Below, in pieces: positions 3,274-28,854 of a DNA stretch of 64,000 nt. The DNA is taken from NCBI GenBank assembly GCA_025358085.1, contig JANYKT010000114.1, positions 1-64,000 on the forward strand, given 5' to 3'. The notes under the pieces were generated by a model that was not told the DNA's origin, ran no database searches, and was given only the letters and a program-made list of their open reading frames with translations. The first letter of the stretch is position 1; each line of letters begins with the position of its first letter. Source of the stretch: Deltaproteobacteria bacterium. GTDB lineage: Bacteria; Myxococcota; Myxococcia; Myxococcales; 40CM-4-68-19. The position numbers and the translations under genes are program-made.

Positions 3274-5247
3274 GTGGCCGGAGACGCCGACATTCGCCGT
3301 CCCGATCGCGTTGCCAGCCTGACCCTGCTGGTGGTGGCTCTGTTGGCGCTGGGCTGGTCCTGGTCGGCACCCTGGTGGGAAATGCAGGCGCGAGCGCCGC
3401 AATATGGGCAGCGCACGTTGATCGTCGAGGTCAATCCGCGCGGCGTCGTGGGCGACGTCTTCGAGATCGACACGCTCGGGCATTACGTCGGCATCAGCAA
3501 GATGGAGAACTTCGCGCCCTTCGAGCGGCGACTGGCCCCGTTCGGGCTCATCGCCGCCATTCTGGGAATGTTCGCGGCGCCGTGGCTGCGGCGACCCTGG
3601 CAGCGCCTCCTGGCGGTGCTGCCGACGGTGGCCCTGCCGACGCTCTTCCTCCTCGATCTCGACTTGACCATGGCCCGCGCAGCCAACGACCGCGACCCCG
3701 ACGCGGCACTCAATCTGGTCCTCGGGCACGTGGACACCCGCCTGTTCGGCGAATACGTGCTCGCACAGTTCAAGGTGACCGCGCGTCCCGGTATCGGCCT
3801 CTTCCTCGCTGCCATTGCCGCACTGCTCGGACTGGGACTGGTCTTCGCGGTGCCCCTGCAACTCCGCAGGCGCAAGCTGCAGGCGACGGTGGCCGGAGCG
3901 GTGGCCGCCGCGCTCTGCCTGGTCGTGAGCGGCAGCGCGCAAGCGGCGGACCTCATCGTCAAAGAGGGCCAGAGCCTCGTGACAGCGATCGAGGGGGCCC
4001 GTGCTGGAGACACCCTCTTGATCGCTGGCGTGCACCGCGAGCGCGTGACCGTCAACAAGCGATTGCGCCTGTTGGGCTCCGACGGCGCAGTGCTTGACGG
4101 TGGTGGCGCTGGCACCGTGCTGCGCATCGAGGCCGACGGCGTCGAGGTAGAGGGCCTCGCCCTCCGCGGCAGCGGCGACGTCTACACTTCTGAGGACGCA
4201 GCGGTCCGCATCGAGCGCGCCGCGGGCGTACAGCTTCGACGGCTTCGCATCGAGGACACGCTCTTTGGTATCTTCGCGGTGCAGGCCGACCGCTGCCTCG
4301 TCGAAGGTTCGACCATTACCGGCAAAGACCTGCCCACTGAGCGCCGCGGCGATGGCATCCGCCTCTGGTACTCGGGCGGCTGCAAGCTGCTGGGGAACGT
4401 GCTTGATCGCAGCCGCGACCTCGTCATCTGGTATTCGTCGAACACGCTGGTTGAGAACAATGTCGTGCGTCACAGCCGCTATGGCCTTCATTACATGTTC
4501 TCGGACGACAACGTCTTCCGCGGCAATCGATTCGAGGACGATGAGGTCGGTGCAGCCATCATGTACAGCCGCCGCATCCTGCTGGAGGGGAATGCTTTCT
4601 CGTTCGCAACCGGGGTCTCGGCAAATGGTGTCTTGATCAAGGATGCAGACGACGTTTTCATCCGGGGAAATCGCTTCGTTGGAAACGCCATCGCCCTGTT
4701 TCTCGACAGCGCGCCACAGTCGCGGGGCGGAAAGCTGGAGGTCCGCGGCAACCTCTTCGCCCGCAACGACGTCGCCGTTGCGCTGCAGCCAAGCGGGAGC
4801 GGAGCCGCCTTCTGGGAAAACGCTTTCATCGGTAATCACACCCAGGTGCAGATACAAGGGACCGGCACCGCCGCCCATACACAGTGGTCGGTGGGCGGCC
4901 GGGGCAACTACTGGAGCGACGCGTTGGTGTACGACAGCGCGGGAACTGGAGTGTCGGCGCTGCCCTATCGCCCCGAGAGCAGCTACGAAGTGCTGGCGGA
5001 CCGCTATCCGTCGCTGGCTTTCTTCGACGGCACGCCCGCGGCCGACGCCATTGACATGGCCTCGCGGCTGTTTCCCCTCTTCCCGCCCCGGCCCAAACTG
5101 ATTGATGCGCATCCGTTGGTACGGCCGCCGCTGGACGATTGGACTCTGAATCGCGGCGAGCGCTCCGGGCACCTGGCTTTTGCCGGAAGTTCAGTCTTCG
5201 CGCTGGCGGCAGCGCTGCTTTGGGGGGCACGAAGGGCAGTGTCATGA
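3274..5247 (+). CDS. nosD: Fused NosB-like membrane domain and NosD copper-maturation protein
   Basis: One uninterrupted frame of 657 residues starts at GTG 3274, 2 bases after the nosZ stop; an ATG at 3184 would lie inside nosZ and is unlikely. Residues 1-200 form a membrane domain with helices near 13-31, 88-104, 111-127 and 172-193. A periplasmic loop containing GDVFEIDTLGHYVGISKM resembles NosB of clade II clusters. Residues 203-224 look like the former NosD signal peptide (ending SAQA), now an internal helix. Residues 226-620 are the parallel beta-helix (CASH/NosD) repeats that help assemble the CuZ centre. A final helix lies near 637-655. No stop or frameshift separates the two halves. 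NosB and NosD are normally separate proteins, so the fusion is unusual. Confidence 0.88.
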   Translation: MAGDADIRRPDRVASLTLLVVALLALGWSWSAPWWEMQARAPQYGQRTLIVEVNPRGVVGDVFEIDTLGHYVGISKMENFAPFERRLAPFGLIAAILGMFAAPWLRRPWQRLLAVLPTVALPTLFLLDLDLTMARAANDRDPDAALNLVLGHVDTRLFGEYVLAQFKVTARPGIGLFLAAIAALLGLGLVFAVPLQLRRRKLQATVAGAVAAALCLVVSGSAQAADLIVKEGQSLVTAIEGARAGDTLLIAGVHRERVTVNKRLRLLGSDGAVLDGGGAGTVLRIEADGVEVEGLALRGSGDVYTSEDAAVRIERAAGVQLRRLRIEDTLFGIFAVQADRCLVEGSTITGKDLPTERRGDGIRLWYSGGCKLLGNVLDRSRDLVIWYSSNTLVENNVVRHSRYGLHYMFSDDNVFRGNRFEDDEVGAAIMYSRRILLEGNAFSFATGVSANGVLIKDADDVFIRGNRFVGNAIALFLDSAPQSRGGKLEVRGNLFARNDVAVALQPSGSGAAFWENAFIGNHTQVQIQGTGTAAHTQWSVGGRGNYWSDALVYDSAGTGVSALPYRPESSYEVLADRYPSLAFFDGTPAADAIDMASRLFPLFPPRPKLIDAHPLVRPPLDDWTLNRGERSGHLAFAGSSVFALAAALLWGARRAVS

Positions 5248-5915
5248 TCGATATCAAGGAAGTCAGTCTCGACCTGGGCGAGCGCCGGGTGTTGGAGTCC
5301 GTCTCCTTCCACGTCGCGCTCGGCGAGTCGGTCGCGCTGGTGGGGCCGAACGGCTCGGGGAAGACCAGCGTGCTCCGCTGCATTCTCGGCCTGCTCCCGT
5401 ACTCGGGGAAGATCACTGTGGGCGGGCACGACGCGTTCTGCGAGCCGGTCGCGGCGCGGACGCTGATTGGCTACCTGCCGCAGCGCTCTGCTTTCGGCGA
5501 CTCGACCGCGGTGGAGACGCTGCGCTTCACCGCGCGGCTGCGCGGCCTCGACCCCGGGCGATCGCTCGCGGCGCTCGAGCGAGTAGGTCTGGCAGCCGTC
5601 GCTCACCAGCGCGCGCGCACCTTCTCAGGCGGCATGCAGCAGCGTCTGGCGCTCGCAGCGGCGCTGCTCTCGAGCCCCAAAATTTTGCTCTTTGACGAGC
5701 CCACCGCCAGCCTCGATCGCGCCGGCCAGAAGAGCTTTCTTGCCTTGGCCGCGAGCCTGCGAGGAGAGGGGCGCACGCTGGTGCTCGCCTCGCACCGCGC
5801 GGAAGAAATTGATCAGCTGGCCGATCGCGTACTTGAGTTGGACTTCGGGCACCTTCTGCCGGAGCGCGCGGGGTCTGCGGTGCTGCCACTCTTCCCGCAG
5901 CGAGCGCAGTCATGA
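5244..5915 (+). CDS. nosF: NosF, ABC ATPase for nitrous-oxide reductase maturation
   Basis: 223 residues. Walker A GPNGSGKT (34-41), ABC signature FSGGMQQ near 130, Walker B ILLFDEP and switch histidine in SHR are all present, so it should hydrolyse ATP. In the family, NosF powers NosY in moving a sulfur or copper-linked factor needed for the CuZ cluster. The ATG at 5244 overlaps the upstream stop (ATGA, 5244-5247), indicating translational coupling; a longer open frame starting at 5139 would lie inside nosD. Confidence 0.93.
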   Translation: MIDIKEVSLDLGERRVLESVSFHVALGESVALVGPNGSGKTSVLRCILGLLPYSGKITVGGHDAFCEPVAARTLIGYLPQRSAFGDSTAVETLRFTARLRGLDPGRSLAALERVGLAAVAHQRARTFSGGMQQRLALAAALLSSPKILLFDEPTASLDRAGQKSFLALAASLRGEGRTLVLASHRAEEIDQLADRVLELDFGHLLPERAGSAVLPLFPQRAQS

Positions 5916-6745
5916 GGCTGCGCGAGACTTCCCTCATCGCCGCCCGCGAAATCCGCGAAGCGCTGCGCAGCCGGTGGTTCGCCGCAGCTGCCGCAAGCTT
6001 CCTGGTGCTGGCGCTGGCGCTGTCGTGGCTTGGGCTCGCCGGGGCGCAGCGCTCGGGCCTGGCGGGCTTCGACCGGACCACCGCGGCGCTCCTCAACCTC
6101 GCCCTCCTCTTCGTACCGCTGATCGCGCTCAGCCTGGGCGGGCTCGGCATCGCGGGAGAGCTGGAGGACGGCTCCCTCGCAGTGCTGCTCGCCAATCCGG
6201 TCACGCGTGCCGAGGTTTTTTTCGGCAAGTACCTGGGCATGATCGGGGCGGTCGGCGCCGCCGTCGTCGCGGGCTTCGGAACCGCGGGCGTGGTCGTCGG
6301 GCTGCTCGCCGGCGGCGGCGAGGTGCGGCCTTTCTTGCTCTTGATCGTGCTGACTCTGCTGCTCGCGGCCGCCATGCTCGCGCTCGGGACGCTAATCTCA
6401 GTGGCCACCCGCAGCCGGGCCCGCGCGGTTGGCGCCGCCTTCGCCGCCTGGCTCGCGCTGGTCTACCTGTGCGACCTCGGGGCCATCGGCCTCGCCATCG
6501 CGCGCGCGCTTTCGCCCGGACAAGTCTTCGCGCTTTCGCTGGTCAACCCGGTCGAGCAGGCGCGCGTGCTGGGGACACTGGCCTTGACCAGCCGGCCCGA
6601 GGTGCTCGGACCCGCGGGCCTCTTCGGCGCCGACCACTTTGGGCCGCTCGGGCTCCAGCTGCTGCTCTTCGGCGCGCTCGTCTTCTGGTCGCTCGCCTCG
6701 CTCGCCGCGGGCTTTTCCCTCTTCCGCAGGGCGGTGGTGTCATGA
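5912..6745 (+). CDS. nosY: NosY, ABC permease for nitrous-oxide reductase maturation
   Basis: 277 residues with about six membrane helices, of the ABC-2 type. The sequence GGLGIAGELEDGSLAVLLA followed by NPVTRAEVFFGKY is typical of NosY-like permeases. It starts by an ATGA overlap with nosF and ends by an ATGA overlap with nosL. It should form the inner-membrane channel partner of NosF and act together with the periplasmic NosD domain. Confidence 0.92.
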   Translation: MRLRETSLIAAREIREALRSRWFAAAAASFLVLALALSWLGLAGAQRSGLAGFDRTTAALLNLALLFVPLIALSLGGLGIAGELEDGSLAVLLANPVTRAEVFFGKYLGMIGAVGAAVVAGFGTAGVVVGLLAGGGEVRPFLLLIVLTLLLAAAMLALGTLISVATRSRARAVGAAFAAWLALVYLCDLGAIGLAIARALSPGQVFALSLVNPVEQARVLGTLALTSRPEVLGPAGLFGADHFGPLGLQLLLFGALVFWSLASLAAGFSLFRRAVVS

Positions 6746-24363: not shown

Positions 24364-24879
24364 TTGCTGCCGCTCGGCCACCTCGGCATCGGCTCGCGGC
24401 TGCTGGGACCGTACCGGACCCGCTTCGACTGGCGTCTGCTCTATCTCGGCTGCCTGCTGCCGGACCTGATCGACAAGCCGCTCTACTATGCATTGTCGCT
24501 CGCGACAGGCCGCCACGGGGCCGCGCTGGGCCTCTTCAGCGGCTCGCGCACGATCGGCCACACGCTGCTCTTCTTCTTCCTGCTCGCGGCGCTATCCTTT
24601 GGTTATCGCGGCTTCGCGGCAGTCGCCGCCGGTGTCGCGACGCACCTCTTTCTCGACAACCTGGGCGACCTCTTCGCACCGCAGGCCCCGCTGGAACGGC
24701 TGACCGTCGTCGCGCTGGTGTTTCCCTTGCTGGGCGTGCGTTTCCCGGTCGCGCCCTTCGCAGATTTCGCCGACCTCCTGATGCGCGATCTGACCAGCAT
24801 CTACTCGATTGCGGGTGAGCTGATCGGCGGCGCAATCCTGCTCGCTGCCTGGTTCAAACAAAGGCGTCAATCTTCGTAG
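24364..24879 (+). CDS. Membrane-bound YdjM/DUF457-like predicted metal-dependent hydrolase
   Basis: 171 residues, apparently from TTG 24364. Pattern PLGHLGIG, DLIDKPLY, GHTLLFFFLL and HLFLDNLGDL gives His/Asp pairs placed beside membrane helices, as in the DUF457 (YdjM) family of predicted membrane hydrolases. Four or five helices are visible. It begins 3 bases after the barrel gene and its end overlaps the convergent era gene by 13 bases. Confidence 0.7.
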   Translation: MLPLGHLGIGSRLLGPYRTRFDWRLLYLGCLLPDLIDKPLYYALSLATGRHGAALGLFSGSRTIGHTLLFFFLLAALSFGYRGFAAVAAGVATHLFLDNLGDLFAPQAPLERLTVVALVFPLLGVRFPVAPFADFADLLMRDLTSIYSIAGELIGGAILLAAWFKQRRQSS

Positions 24880-25790
24880 CCGGCGCGCCGCATTCCCTTT
24901 TCACTTTGGGTCCAGCCGGGCTCGACGCGCACGTGCAGCTGCAGAAAAACCTTGGCTCCCAGCAGCCGCTCGATCTCCTTGCGCGCCAAGGTGCCGATCT
25001 CTTTCAGTCGCGATCCGCCCTTGCCGATGATGATGGCCTTCTGGCTGTCCCGCTCGCACAGCACGGTCGCCAGAATGCGCACCAGACCGTGCTTGCCTTC
25101 CTCGCGCTCGGTCTCGTCGAACTCTTCAACCAAAACCGCCGTCGAGTACGGCACCTCTTGTTCCGTCTGCCGCAAGATCTGCTCGCGCACCAGCTCGGCG
25201 CAAAGCTTCTGCTCGGACACGTCGGTCCAGATCTCCTTGTCGAACATCCGCTCACCTTCGGGCAGGTGCTTGATCAAGGCGGGCAGCAGGCCCTCGACGT
25301 TCTGACCGGTCAGTGCCGAGAGCGGATAGATCTCGGTCCAGTCGTACTCGCTCTTCCAGCGCTCGATGAGCGGCAAGAGCTCGTGCTTGCGGACCGCGTC
25401 GATCTTGTTGATCACCAGCAGCGTCGGCTTCTTCGCTGCCTTCACCTGGTCCAGCGCCTTGCGCATCGCGGTGTCGATGGCCGGCCCTTGCGCTTCAATC
25501 AGGAAGAGCGCGGCGTCGGCGTCGGCCAGCGTCTGCAGCGCCCGATTGACCATGCGCGCGTTCAGCCCGCCCTTCGCGGCGGTGTGCAAGCCGGGCGTGT
25601 CGAGCAGTGCGATCTGTGCGTCTTCGAGCGTGAGGATCCCCAGAACCTTGCCGCGGGTGGTCTGCGGTTTCGGGCTGACGATGGCGACTTTCTGCCCGAT
25701 CAGCCGGTTGAGCAAGGTGCTCTTTCCGACGTTGGGCCGGCCCACGATGGCCACGAACCCTGCTCTGTGGGCCGGCTTTTCGTCAGGCAC
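24867..25790 (-). CDS. era: Era, ribosome-assembly GTPase
   Basis: 307 residues from GTG 25790. GTPase motifs GRPNVGKST, DTPG and NKID, followed by a KH RNA-binding domain containing IIGKGGSRLKEIG. It binds the 3' end of 16S rRNA during 30S maturation. The start overlaps the stop of the upstream cyclophilin gene by 1 base. With the RNase III gene upstream it keeps the widespread rnc-era order, interrupted here by the cyclophilin. Confidence 0.96.
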   Translation of the reverse strand: MPDEKPAHRAGFVAIVGRPNVGKSTLLNRLIGQKVAIVSPKPQTTRGKVLGILTLEDAQIALLDTPGLHTAAKGGLNARMVNRALQTLADADAALFLIEAQGPAIDTAMRKALDQVKAAKKPTLLVINKIDAVRKHELLPLIERWKSEYDWTEIYPLSALTGQNVEGLLPALIKHLPEGERMFDKEIWTDVSEQKLCAELVREQILRQTEQEVPYSTAVLVEEFDETEREEGKHGLVRILATVLCERDSQKAIIIGKGGSRLKEIGTLARKEIERLLGAKVFLQLHVRVEPGWTQSEKGMRRAGYED

Positions 25791-26500
25791 TAGGGGGCCT
25801 TTTCGCTGCGGACGATCTCGAGGGTGTCGAGCTTGGTGGTGGCGTTGCCCGCGCGGCCGATCTGCGGGACGAGCTCGAAGCCTTTGGTGACCTCGCCGAA
25901 GATGGTGTGCTTGTTGTTGAGGTGCGGCGTCGCGACTTCCGTGATGAAGAACTGCGAGCCGTTCGTGCCCGGGCCGGCGTTGGCCATGGCGAGCAGGCCC
26001 GGCTTGTCGAACTTCTTGCCCGAACCGAACTCGTCCTCGAAGCGGTAGCCGGGGTCGCCGGTGCCGGTGCCGAGCGGATCGCCGCCCTGGATCATGAACT
26101 GCGGGATCACGCGGTGGAAGACGGTGCCGTCATAGAGCTTGGCCTTGGTCTTCGCGTGCGTGCGTGGATCGGTCCACTCGCGCGAACCGGTCGCAAGGCC
26201 GACGAAGTTGGCGACGGTGATGGGCGCCTCCTTCTCGAACAGCTTGACGACGATGTTGCCGCGGCTGGTGTGGAAGATTGCGTAGAGATCGCCACTGCCC
26301 TGCGGGATACCGGAGGTCGACATGATCTGCTCCTTGGAGATGCTCGAGGAAGGTTGCTCAAAAGACGGCGGCGGGCGCTGCGGGGGCGGCTGCACAGGTG
26401 GGGTCTGGGTGGCCGCGGCAACGTCGCCGGGCCGGTTGTCCTTGCAACCAACGAGGGCCACAGCGCAGAGGACTGCGAGACCGATGTTCTGCTTGTTCAT
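25790..26500 (-). CDS. Cyclophilin-type peptidyl-prolyl isomerase, lipoprotein
   Basis: 236 residues. Lipobox at ALVGC (Cys19), then a Gln/Pro-rich linker and a cyclophilin domain: FHTSRGNIVVKLFEKEAP, FHRVIPQFMIQGGDP, ANAGPGTNGSQFFIT and HTIFGEV. The catalytic Arg (FHRV) and the Q-F-F-I core are present, so the enzyme should be active on periplasmic or outer-membrane proteins. It lies between rnc-grpB and era. Confidence 0.92.
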   Translation of the reverse strand: MNKQNIGLAVLCAVALVGCKDNRPGDVAAATQTPPVQPPPQRPPPSFEQPSSSISKEQIMSTSGIPQGSGDLYAIFHTSRGNIVVKLFEKEAPITVANFVGLATGSREWTDPRTHAKTKAKLYDGTVFHRVIPQFMIQGGDPLGTGTGDPGYRFEDEFGSGKKFDKPGLLAMANAGPGTNGSQFFITEVATPHLNNKHTIFGEVTKGFELVPQIGRAGNATTKLDTLEIVRSEKAP

Positions 26501-26540: not shown

Positions 26541-26643
26541 AAACTGGGGACACCATACGGATTTCCCGGCAGAAACTGGGACGAGAAGCTGGGACACCCT
26601 ACGGATTTTCCTCAGAGTCGGTCCTAATGCGTATGGTGTTCCC
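26541..26643. repeat. REP-like short repeat cluster (two direct copies, one inverted)
   Basis: Copy 1 at 26541-26566 reads AAACTGGGGACACCATACGG plus ATTTCC; copy 2 at 26586-26611 is the same with minor changes (AAGCTGGGACACCCTACGG). A third, inverted partial copy (GTATGGTGTTCCC) lies at 26631-26643. GGGACACCATAC-type sequences are often found beside REP-associated Y1 transposases, but no transposase is present here. Copy 2 and the inverted copy lie inside the end of the RNase III-GrpB gene. Confidence 0.6.
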
Positions 26644-27804
26644 ATCTTGTTCGTATTTCGCGAGGAGAGGGGCCTTCTCCTGGTCGTAGCGCAGGGAGCC
26701 GGTCGCGCCAGCTGAGATCAGGGCCCGCTTGTCGGCTGCGTAGCGCAAAGCTTCTTCCGGGTGTGCCCGCAGGAAGTCGCGCAGCCGCGCGTGGTCCCGA
26801 AGAATGTCAGGCTGCACCAGGCGCAGATTGAACGCGCCGCGCGGGCCTCGCTTGCGGAAGGCGCCCGGACCGGCGGGCTCGTACTCCGGCAGCCGTGGCA
26901 GAGGCGCCAAGCGGCAAATGTCTAAATCGATGATGGGCCTCGCGGCCAGCCCCGGCACGGCCGTGCTGCCGACGTGCTCGATCTCGACGTCTTCGCCGAG
27001 CAGCGCGTGCAGCCGCGCGATCTCTTCCGCGGCAAGAACGGACCAGCGCAGGTCACCCTCCTCCAGCGCGACCGGCTCGTCCAGCAGCGCGCGCTCGAGC
27101 AGCTCCGGCTGCTCCAGCGCGATCCGCGCCGCCGCCTGCTCCGCCTCTTTTTTGGACTTCCCGATCCCGCGCGCCAACGGCACGCTGTCGAGCCGGGCCT
27201 CGATCTCGTACTCGCGCGCGTGAGGCGGACCCAGCGCCGCGATCACGCAGTACTGCGGCGCGCGCCGCCGAGCTTGAAAGAAATGCTGCAGCTCGGTCTT
27301 GGGGTCGCGCCCGAGCGCCACTGTTTGCGCGAACAACGGCGCGAGCAGGCGCTCCAGCAACGCTTGCGCCGCCGCCATGCCGCAACTGAGGAAGACCGCC
27401 GCCAGCACCGCTTCCAGCGCGTCGGCCAGCCGCGAGGGATTGTCCCCCACCCCGTCGCCACGGCCCACCAGCAGCAGGTCGCCGAGCAAAAGGCTCCGCG
27501 CCACGATGGCGAGCGACTCCTCCCGCACCAGCGACGAGCGCAGCCGGGTGAGTTCCCCTTCGGGCGCGTCGGGGAACCGCTCGTAGCAGCGCTGCGCGAT
27601 GGCCATGCCCAGCACTGCATCGCCGAGAAATTCGAGCCGCTCATTGGAGCGCAGGCTCTCGCGCGAAGGCGGCAACGCGCGCTCGTTGACGTAGCTGGAG
27701 CTGCGCAGCGCTTCGAGGGCAAGCTCCGGCCTGAGCGAACCCGCAGGCAGCCCCAAACGTTCGGTCAAGAGCGCGATGCGCTCGTGATCAGGGAGCTGGG
27801 CCAT
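26599..27804 (-). CDS. rnc: Ribonuclease III fused to a GrpB (UPF0157) nucleotidyltransferase-like domain
   Basis: 401 residues in one frame. Residues 1-150 are the RNase III domain with signature NERLEFLGD (54-62) and all four catalytic acids: E55, D62, D128 and E131. Residues 168-232 form the double-stranded RNA-binding domain (GKSKKEAEQAAARIAL). Residues 245-386 are a GrpB/UPF0157 domain: HVGSTAVPG (277-285) and IIDLDI (D293, D295), the GS...D-x-D pattern of pol-beta-type nucleotidyltransferases. The last 15 residues are encoded by the short repeats at 26586-26643. RNase III normally ends after the dsRBD at about 230 residues. era lies downstream in the usual order. Confidence 0.93.
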   Translation of the reverse strand: MAQLPDHERIALLTERLGLPAGSLRPELALEALRSSSYVNERALPPSRESLRSNERLEFLGDAVLGMAIAQRCYERFPDAPEGELTRLRSSLVREESLAIVARSLLLGDLLLVGRGDGVGDNPSRLADALEAVLAAVFLSCGMAAAQALLERLLAPLFAQTVALGRDPKTELQHFFQARRRAPQYCVIAALGPPHAREYEIEARLDSVPLARGIGKSKKEAEQAAARIALEQPELLERALLDEPVALEEGDLRWSVLAAEEIARLHALLGEDVEIEHVGSTAVPGLAARPIIDLDICRLAPLPRLPEYEPAGPGAFRKRGPRGAFNLRLVQPDILRDHARLRDFLRAHPEEALRYAADKRALISAGATGSLRYDQEKAPLLAKYEQDGNTIRIRTDSEENP

Positions 27805-27828: not shown

Positions 27829-28785
27829 CTACAGCCGCGCCGCCTCGTCCGCGATGGTGTACGGGTCGGTCTCGCGCCGGGCGATCCGCAGCGCCAGGTC
27901 ATCGAGCTGCGCGCCTTGCTTGCCGAGCTTCGCCAACGCCACCCGCATCAGCCGCTCGCGCAGGATCTCGATCAGCTCCGTCCTGGCCCGCAGCTTCTCG
28001 CGCTCCAGCAGCTCGCCCGAGGTTTTCAAATATTGATAATGCGCGGCTATCGAATTCCACAATTCGATAATCCCTTCGTCGCGCGAGGCAACGCATTTGA
28101 GGATCTGCGTCTCGTAAGGCGCCTGATCGTCGGCACCCAGCATGGCGTGGTTCAGCTCCAGCATCGAGCGCAAGTCGCGCACCGTGCGGTCGGCTCCCTC
28201 CCGGTCGCTCTTGTTGACCGCGAAAAGATCAGCCACTTCGAGGATGCCGGCCTTGATGGCCTGGATGTCGTCGCCCAGGCCGGGCACCACCACGACGCAG
28301 GTCGTATGCGCGAGCCGGCAGACTTCGATCTCGTCCTGTCCGACGCCCACGGTCTCGATCAGCACCACGTCCTTTCCCATGGCGTCGAGCACGCGGGCGC
28401 AGTCAGACGTGGCCCGCGAAAGTCCGCCCAGCTGGCCGCGAGTGGCGAGCGAGCGGATGAAGACGCCGGGGTCGAGCGCGTGGTCCTGCATCCGGATGCG
28501 GTCGCCCAGGATGGCGCCCCCGGTGAAAGGACTGCTGGGATCGACCGCGAGCACTCCGACCGTCTTGCCGAGCTTTCTCAGATGAGCCACCAGCCGGTCG
28601 ACGAGCGTGCTCTTCCCGGCGCCTGGGTTGCCGGTGATTCCGACCAGCTGCGCGCGGCCGGTGTGCGGGAAAAGCGCCTTGAGCTCGGCTTCGGCCGAGG
28701 GCTGCGCGTCGTCGATGAGCCGCATCAGGCGCGCGGCGGCGCGAACATCGCCTTGCAACACCCGTTCGGCAAGCGAGGCCGTCAT
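27829..28785 (-). CDS. meaB: MeaB/ArgK-type G3E GTPase, methylmalonyl-CoA mutase chaperone
   Basis: 318 residues from ATG 28785; an in-frame TTG at 28809 is possible but weaker. P-loop GNPGAGKST, VLAVDPSSPFTGGAILGDRIRM, IETVGVGQ and VNKSD are typical of MeaB, which protects and loads methylmalonyl-CoA mutase with adenosylcobalamin. No mutase gene is within the window. The gene follows an acyl-CoA dehydrogenase on the same strand, and a carboxyltransferase gene lies 5 kb upstream, so a propionate/branched-chain acyl-CoA context is plausible. Confidence 0.93.
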   Translation of the reverse strand: MTASLAERVLQGDVRAAARLMRLIDDAQPSAEAELKALFPHTGRAQLVGITGNPGAGKSTLVDRLVAHLRKLGKTVGVLAVDPSSPFTGGAILGDRIRMQDHALDPGVFIRSLATRGQLGGLSRATSDCARVLDAMGKDVVLIETVGVGQDEIEVCRLAHTTCVVVVPGLGDDIQAIKAGILEVADLFAVNKSDREGADRTVRDLRSMLELNHAMLGADDQAPYETQILKCVASRDEGIIELWNSIAAHYQYLKTSGELLEREKLRARTELIEILRERLMRVALAKLGKQGAQLDDLALRIARRETDPYTIADEAARL

Positions 28786-28854
28786 TTCAGTGGCCCTCGC
28801 CAGCGCCAATGGTCAAAGCGGCGGTCAGAGCGGCCGCGAGCGCGGGGCGCCCCA

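Follow-up and report, generated by a model that had tools for sequence, protein, structure and literature searches.

The analysis of the window, that is, the whole 64,000-nucleotide stretch of contig JANYKT010000114.1 of a Deltaproteobacteria bacterium, identified a gene in which a bona fide RNase III is fused to a bona fide but divergent GrpB (UPF0157) domain. This rnc::grpB gene lies on the minus strand at positions 26599–27804, with an ATG start codon at 27804 and a TAG stop codon at 26601–26599, and encodes a protein of 401 residues. The best explanation of the data is that the protein is a class-1 RNase III of the ordinary type, to whose C-terminus a GrpB domain is rigidly joined. To our knowledge, GrpB/UPF0157 proteins are widespread and have no settled biochemical function. 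The original prediction had proposed the same frame, comprising RNase III, a dsRNA-binding domain (dsRBD) and GrpB, without giving its strand, and the ORF, Pfam and TIGR02191 results confirmed it.

The RNase III part was recognized by Pfam as Ribonucleas_3_3 and Ribonuclease_3 (E-values of 3.5e-23 and 1.8e-22, respectively), and the protein passed the NCBIfam equivalog TIGR02191 (ribonuclease III) with 184.6 bits, the curated cut-off being 166.25. According to Pfam, TIGR02191, the alignment and the residue check, the catalytic domain comprises residues 1–160 (27325–27804, minus strand, as are all genes and domains given below). It contains the RNase III signature NERLEFLGDAVLG with the four metal-binding acids E58, D62, D128 and E131, which are conserved in the relatives. 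These acids are the equivalents of E41, D45, D114 and E117 of E. coli RNase III, and E55 of the fusion protein is that of E38. The claim that the RNase III is catalytic was thus sustained, as all the acids are present and conserved, but the residue list that came with it had to be corrected, because E58 and not E55 is the metal ligand. The dsRBD follows at residues 168–232 (27109–27303; Pfam dsrm, E-value of 2.1e-14), and its KKxAEQ motif, here KKEAEQ, was found at residue 218. Other class-1 bacterial RNases III (TIGR02191; structures 1o0w, 7r97, and 2nug) have the same catalytic domain, four acids and dsRBD, and are likewise encoded by a single-copy gene in an rnc-era neighbourhood; the fusion differs from them by the extension of 160 residues with GrpB after the dsRBD.

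Residues 233–241 (27082–27108) form a linker, identified from the AlphaFold2 model, where it is a high-confidence helix, and from motif distances in the relatives. The GrpB domain occupies residues 244–386 (26647–27075) and matched positions 1–158 of the 159 of the Pfam profile PF04229 (E-value of 6.2e-22; score of 78.9 bits, the cut-off being 25.5). The whole protein was modelled with a mean pLDDT of 92.5. Profile searches of the genome of the window's species gave a single RNase III match and a single GrpB match.

Full-length fusions were found in four species of the genus g3 (G002, G005, G007, and G008), with identities of 60–64%. In a fifth relative (G010), the RNase III part exits one contig end within the dsRBD and the GrpB part begins at another contig end. 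By contrast, in the sister genera g2 (G001 and G004) and g4 (G003 and G006) the RNase III, whose identity by alignment was about 52–59%, stops after the dsRBD and lacks GrpB, and no GrpB was detected elsewhere in these four genomes either. The distance between the KKEAEQ and EHxGST motifs was 57 residues in the four full-length g3 species and 58 in the window. Both parts of the protein gave one fused clade in phylogenetic trees, with SH-aLRT supports of 98 for RNase III and 93 for GrpB. In the latter tree, the sister group was formed by the free-standing GrpB of G086, G088 and G089 (support of 97), which belong to another family in the same order. These trees contradict a history of separate rnc and grpB genes in all close relatives, a condition that the original prediction had named as able to overturn it. 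The simplest history, and the one that both trees support, is that rnc was fused once, in frame, with grpB in the common ancestor of the genera g1 (that of the window) and g3. The phylum of these genomes, all of one family, was inferred to be Myxococcota and the order Myxococcales, since the rnc DNA of an Archangium record (L073) matches loci of the order with identities of 74–80%.

The gene neighbourhood was also informative. Upstream of the fusion gene and 24 bases away lies meaB (27829–28809; Pfam MeaB, E-value of 2.9e-93), and downstream are the genes of a cyclophilin-type peptidyl-prolyl isomerase (25790–26500; Pfam) and, in the same cluster, of the era GTPase (24867–25790; MMR_HSR1 plus KH_2), all three in conserved order. 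In the fused genomes this order is STK-ACAD-meaB-rnc-ppi-era-miaB-engA, where STK is a protein kinase and ACAD an acyl-CoA dehydrogenase. The unfused g2 genome G001, with a bare rnc, keeps this order between ACAD and engA, which means that GrpB was added to the housekeeping rnc already present in the ancestor. The single match in the genome and the conserved order indicate that the fusion is the single-copy housekeeping rnc in its rnc-era neighbourhood. A plasmid origin was also considered and rejected, as coverage of the query did not reach 80% in any plasmid record. As a separate observation, the fused gene and the cyclophilin match are 1.4–2.1 kb apart in G007 and G005 (L112, about 3470–4940; L115, about 4405–6550), against approximately 0.1 kb in the window.

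Among the matches listed for about 1,380 genomes, drawn from four phyla, there was no other RNase III-GrpB fusion. The own phylum was represented by 195 genomes, of which 186 gave a match; the phyla of Alkalicoccus and Geobacter contributed 399 and 395, and that of a Candidatus Kapaibacterium 386. These scans covered the best matches of each list (approximately 150), a fusion split into two matches may escape them, and Actinomycetota and Pseudomonadota are outside the sample. A scan of a contig collection gave RNase III matches only, with identities of at most 47%. As far as seen, the architecture is restricted to one lineage. It also looks undescribed, as had been anticipated: the literature collection searched gave no description of an RNase III-GrpB fusion, and the 2009 list of UPF0157 architectures in PMC2765170 has GrpB either by itself or joined to CoaE, acetyltransferases or a deaminase, and never to RNase III.

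Because the fold search with the full-length protein gave mainly RNase III, the GrpB part was modelled alone, with a mean pLDDT of 92.5. The best structures in the search with this model were those of its own family, 2nrk (GrpB of Enterococcus faecalis; TM of 0.72) and 6n39 (mycobacterial CoaE with GrpB). The next neighbours, with E-values of 0.03–0.5, were almost all nucleotidyltransferases, namely URT1, CutA, TUT7, an aminoglycoside nucleotidyltransferase, the CCA-adding enzyme and Cid1. Therefore, the fold of GrpB is nucleotidyltransferase-like, and it includes the GS motif; the structure prediction that had been suggested as a check of the domain thus gave the fold expected of it.

Six fused copies were then compared, residue by residue, with 43 free-standing GrpB proteins. 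H277, G279, S280, T281, D293, R342, Y355 and K359 were invariant in all the fused copies and in the free-standing proteins, so that the HVGST motif (residues 277–281; 26962–26976) varies only at V278. Like the E. faecalis protein, members of this family (PF04229, COG2320) share the fold and these residues with the fusion, but they are normally free-standing. K377 is kept in five of the six fused copies and K289 is replaced by R in two. The HVGSTAVPG stretch, D293 (26926–26928) and D295 are located where they had been announced, but the use of the last two as a catalytic D-x-D did not hold. Among the fused copies, D295 is an aspartate only in the window's species and a leucine in the other five, and only 6 of the 43 free-standing proteins have D there. 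For this reason D295 was not inherited as a catalytic residue, and an inherited DxD active site was rejected.

The near-invariant histidine of the third strand is present in 36 of the 43 free-standing proteins, and its absence from the other seven indicates that it is not an absolute requirement. At the corresponding position 328, the window has R, four fused copies have Q and one has H, so that five of the six have lost the histidine; A stands at this position in each of the three sister proteins that are free-standing. From these sequences, the histidine was probably already dispensable in this GrpB branch before the fusion, even though one fused copy retains it. The conserved acidic triad (DxD plus a third acid) is consequently absent, the third position being R, Q or H in the fused copies. 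With respect to other members of the family, mycobacterial CoaE-GrpB (6n39) lacks the arginine at the position of R342, which is invariant in the 43 free-standing proteins; hence the pocket residues lost by GrpB fusions differ from lineage to lineage. Separately, a group of GrpB proteins that stand alone, from a different family of the order (L192–L197), share a conserved N-terminal extension of approximately 50 residues (RxxRxLKxRxxxExxGGExxxxLVxRxxRL).

Since the pocket-like residues are kept and an inherited acidic triad is lacking, we favour a cis-acting and probably non-catalytic role of GrpB as a ligand- or RNA-binding module that would tune or stabilise RNase III, a reading to which our analysis gives an even chance. 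The RNase III part, with its catalytic residues intact, would cut dsRNA as usual. The GrpB pocket formed by the invariant residues would still bind a phosphate-bearing ligand, be it a nucleotide or the end of an RNA. The domain would thereby give the RNase III dimer more affinity, better positioning or a more stable fold, while performing no nucleotidyl transfer. Within this cis role, GrpB might act by binding nucleotides or RNA ends, by making extra contacts with dsRNA, or by stabilising the enzyme. A comparable arrangement is found in the NF90/NF45 DZF proteins, where a pseudoenzyme domain with the nucleotidyltransferase fold also stands beside dsRBDs; the DZF domain of NF90 raises the affinity of its dsRBDs for dsRNA more than 10-fold (PMC11952958). 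However, these proteins are eukaryotic heterodimers with another domain order and without an RNase III domain. Neither this precedent nor that of CoaE is more than an analogy, as the homology with NF90 does not extend to the details and the residue lost from CoaE-GrpB is another one. It also counts against a non-catalytic GrpB that the retained invariant residues could equally form a working active site of another chemistry, and that the GrpB family lacks the canonical acidic triad and yet is widely conserved.

The GrpB part could also act only as an intramolecular chaperone that aids the folding or solubility of RNase III without any ligand, which we regard as rather unlikely. This has been proposed for mycobacterial CoaE (PRK03333/NF002879; 6n39), where GrpB is also placed at the C-terminus of a housekeeping enzyme and, according to PMC2765170, is needed in M. 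tuberculosis for folding and for obtaining a soluble, active kinase. The rigid linker helix predicted in our model would fit such a function. However, the RNase III of the sister genera manages without GrpB, and selection preserves the pocket residues and not merely the core. In the CoaE protein itself, the partner of GrpB is a dephospho-CoA kinase and different residues have been lost. The model NF002879 reached only 40.9 of 215 bits on the fusion, in the GrpB stretch alone, the N-terminus being RNase III and not dephospho-CoA kinase. If GrpB only aided folding, the CoaE result would be generalised.

It had been suggested that the GrpB domain may act on the RNA products, for example by nucleotidyl transfer. 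In the form given, with the D-x-D as argument, this proposal was not supported; the nucleotidyltransferase fold agrees with it. We consider it unlikely that GrpB is an active nucleotidyltransferase adding nucleotides to, or otherwise modifying, the ends made by RNase III. It keeps some weight because the nearest foreign folds of GrpB are RNA tailing enzymes: after 2nrk and 6n39, the best neighbours of the model were URT1 and TUT7, both RNA-terminal uridylyltransferases, CutA and the CCA-adding enzyme, although weakly (E-values of 0.03–0.3). The invariant GS motif and D293 also agree with it. In addition, a conserved gene cluster of Mimiviridae (Mimivirus and Megavirus) is reported in the abstract of PMC4402537 to pair a hairpin RNase with poly(A) polymerases of this fold, coupling RNA hairpin cleavage to a nucleotidyltransferase, but there the proteins are separate and viral and the polymerases canonical and active. 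The second acid of the DxD, besides being L in most fused copies, is absent from most free-standing GrpB proteins, and the third-strand position holds no acid. Moreover, the GrpB domain has only approximately 140 residues, and Pfam detected no nucleotidyltransferase-associated domain further towards the C-terminus of the fusion protein. M. tuberculosis CoaE-GrpB showed neither methyltransferase nor phosphopantetheinyl transferase activity (PMC2765170), and the section reporting these assays has none of nucleotidyl transfer. The more specific version, in which a single protein cuts and modifies, seems to us slightly less probable still; here GrpB would rely on HxGST, D293, basic residues and a non-canonical chemistry to add nucleotides or phosphates to the RNA ends made by RNase III, or to remove them. 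Were it true, a biochemical activity would for the first time be assigned to GrpB proteins. More generally, if GrpB modulates RNase III or modifies its products, the family would be linked to RNA metabolism.

GrpB might also be a nearly neutral passenger, a tail tolerated after rnc had lost its stop codon and become joined to an adjacent grpB; to our judgement this is distinctly improbable. At least six species from two genera have retained the fusion although they have diverged substantially, the dS of GrpB among the g3 species being about 0.8–1.1. Pairwise dN/dS ratios (Nei-Gojobori), which are rough because dS was 0.6–1.3, were similar for the two parts among the four g3 species, ranging from 0.18 to 0.30 for GrpB and from 0.13 to 0.26 for the RNase III domain. 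Comparison of the window with g3 gave 0.36–0.51 for the former and 0.19–0.26 for the latter. GrpB is thus under purifying selection in g3 and evolves faster in the window's species, where its end branch is 1.06, about 8 residues have been lost and K289 has changed to R. On account of these changes, the function of GrpB may be weakening there; this faster evolution, the deletions and the repeat-derived C-terminus are what speaks for a passenger. The idea that GrpB is also made by itself, from an internal start, was rejected, since the linker before the domain has no start codon common to all the species; the domain is therefore probably produced solely within the fusion protein. Finally, an assembly or sequencing artefact has practically no probability, since four other genomes carry the identical fusion from end to end with a constant linker length, which excludes a lost stop, the sequencing error feared between residues 230 and 250 was not seen, and nothing was found in its favour.

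As a selected natural fusion to an enzyme of known substrate, with sister genera that lack GrpB, the protein makes the function of GrpB testable.

Some repeated sequences were observed around the end of the gene. A REP-like repeat, GGGGACACCATACG(C/G)AT, is present in the window at 26547–26567, 26591–26611 and 26626–26651. The genome of the window's species has 86 sites with at most 2 mismatches, against 0 for the reversed control, and head-to-head pairs are frequent. One repeat arm (26626–26651) has become part of the coding sequence at the C-terminal end of the fusion, where it encodes part of the tail DGNTIRIRTDSEENP (residues 387–401; 26602–26646), which is absent from the relatives. The same genome contains 15 matches to Y1_Tnp (PF01797) transposase-like proteins (for example L215–L222), 11 of them above the curated cut-off, and the REP-like repeats may stem from these proteins, acting as RAYTs.
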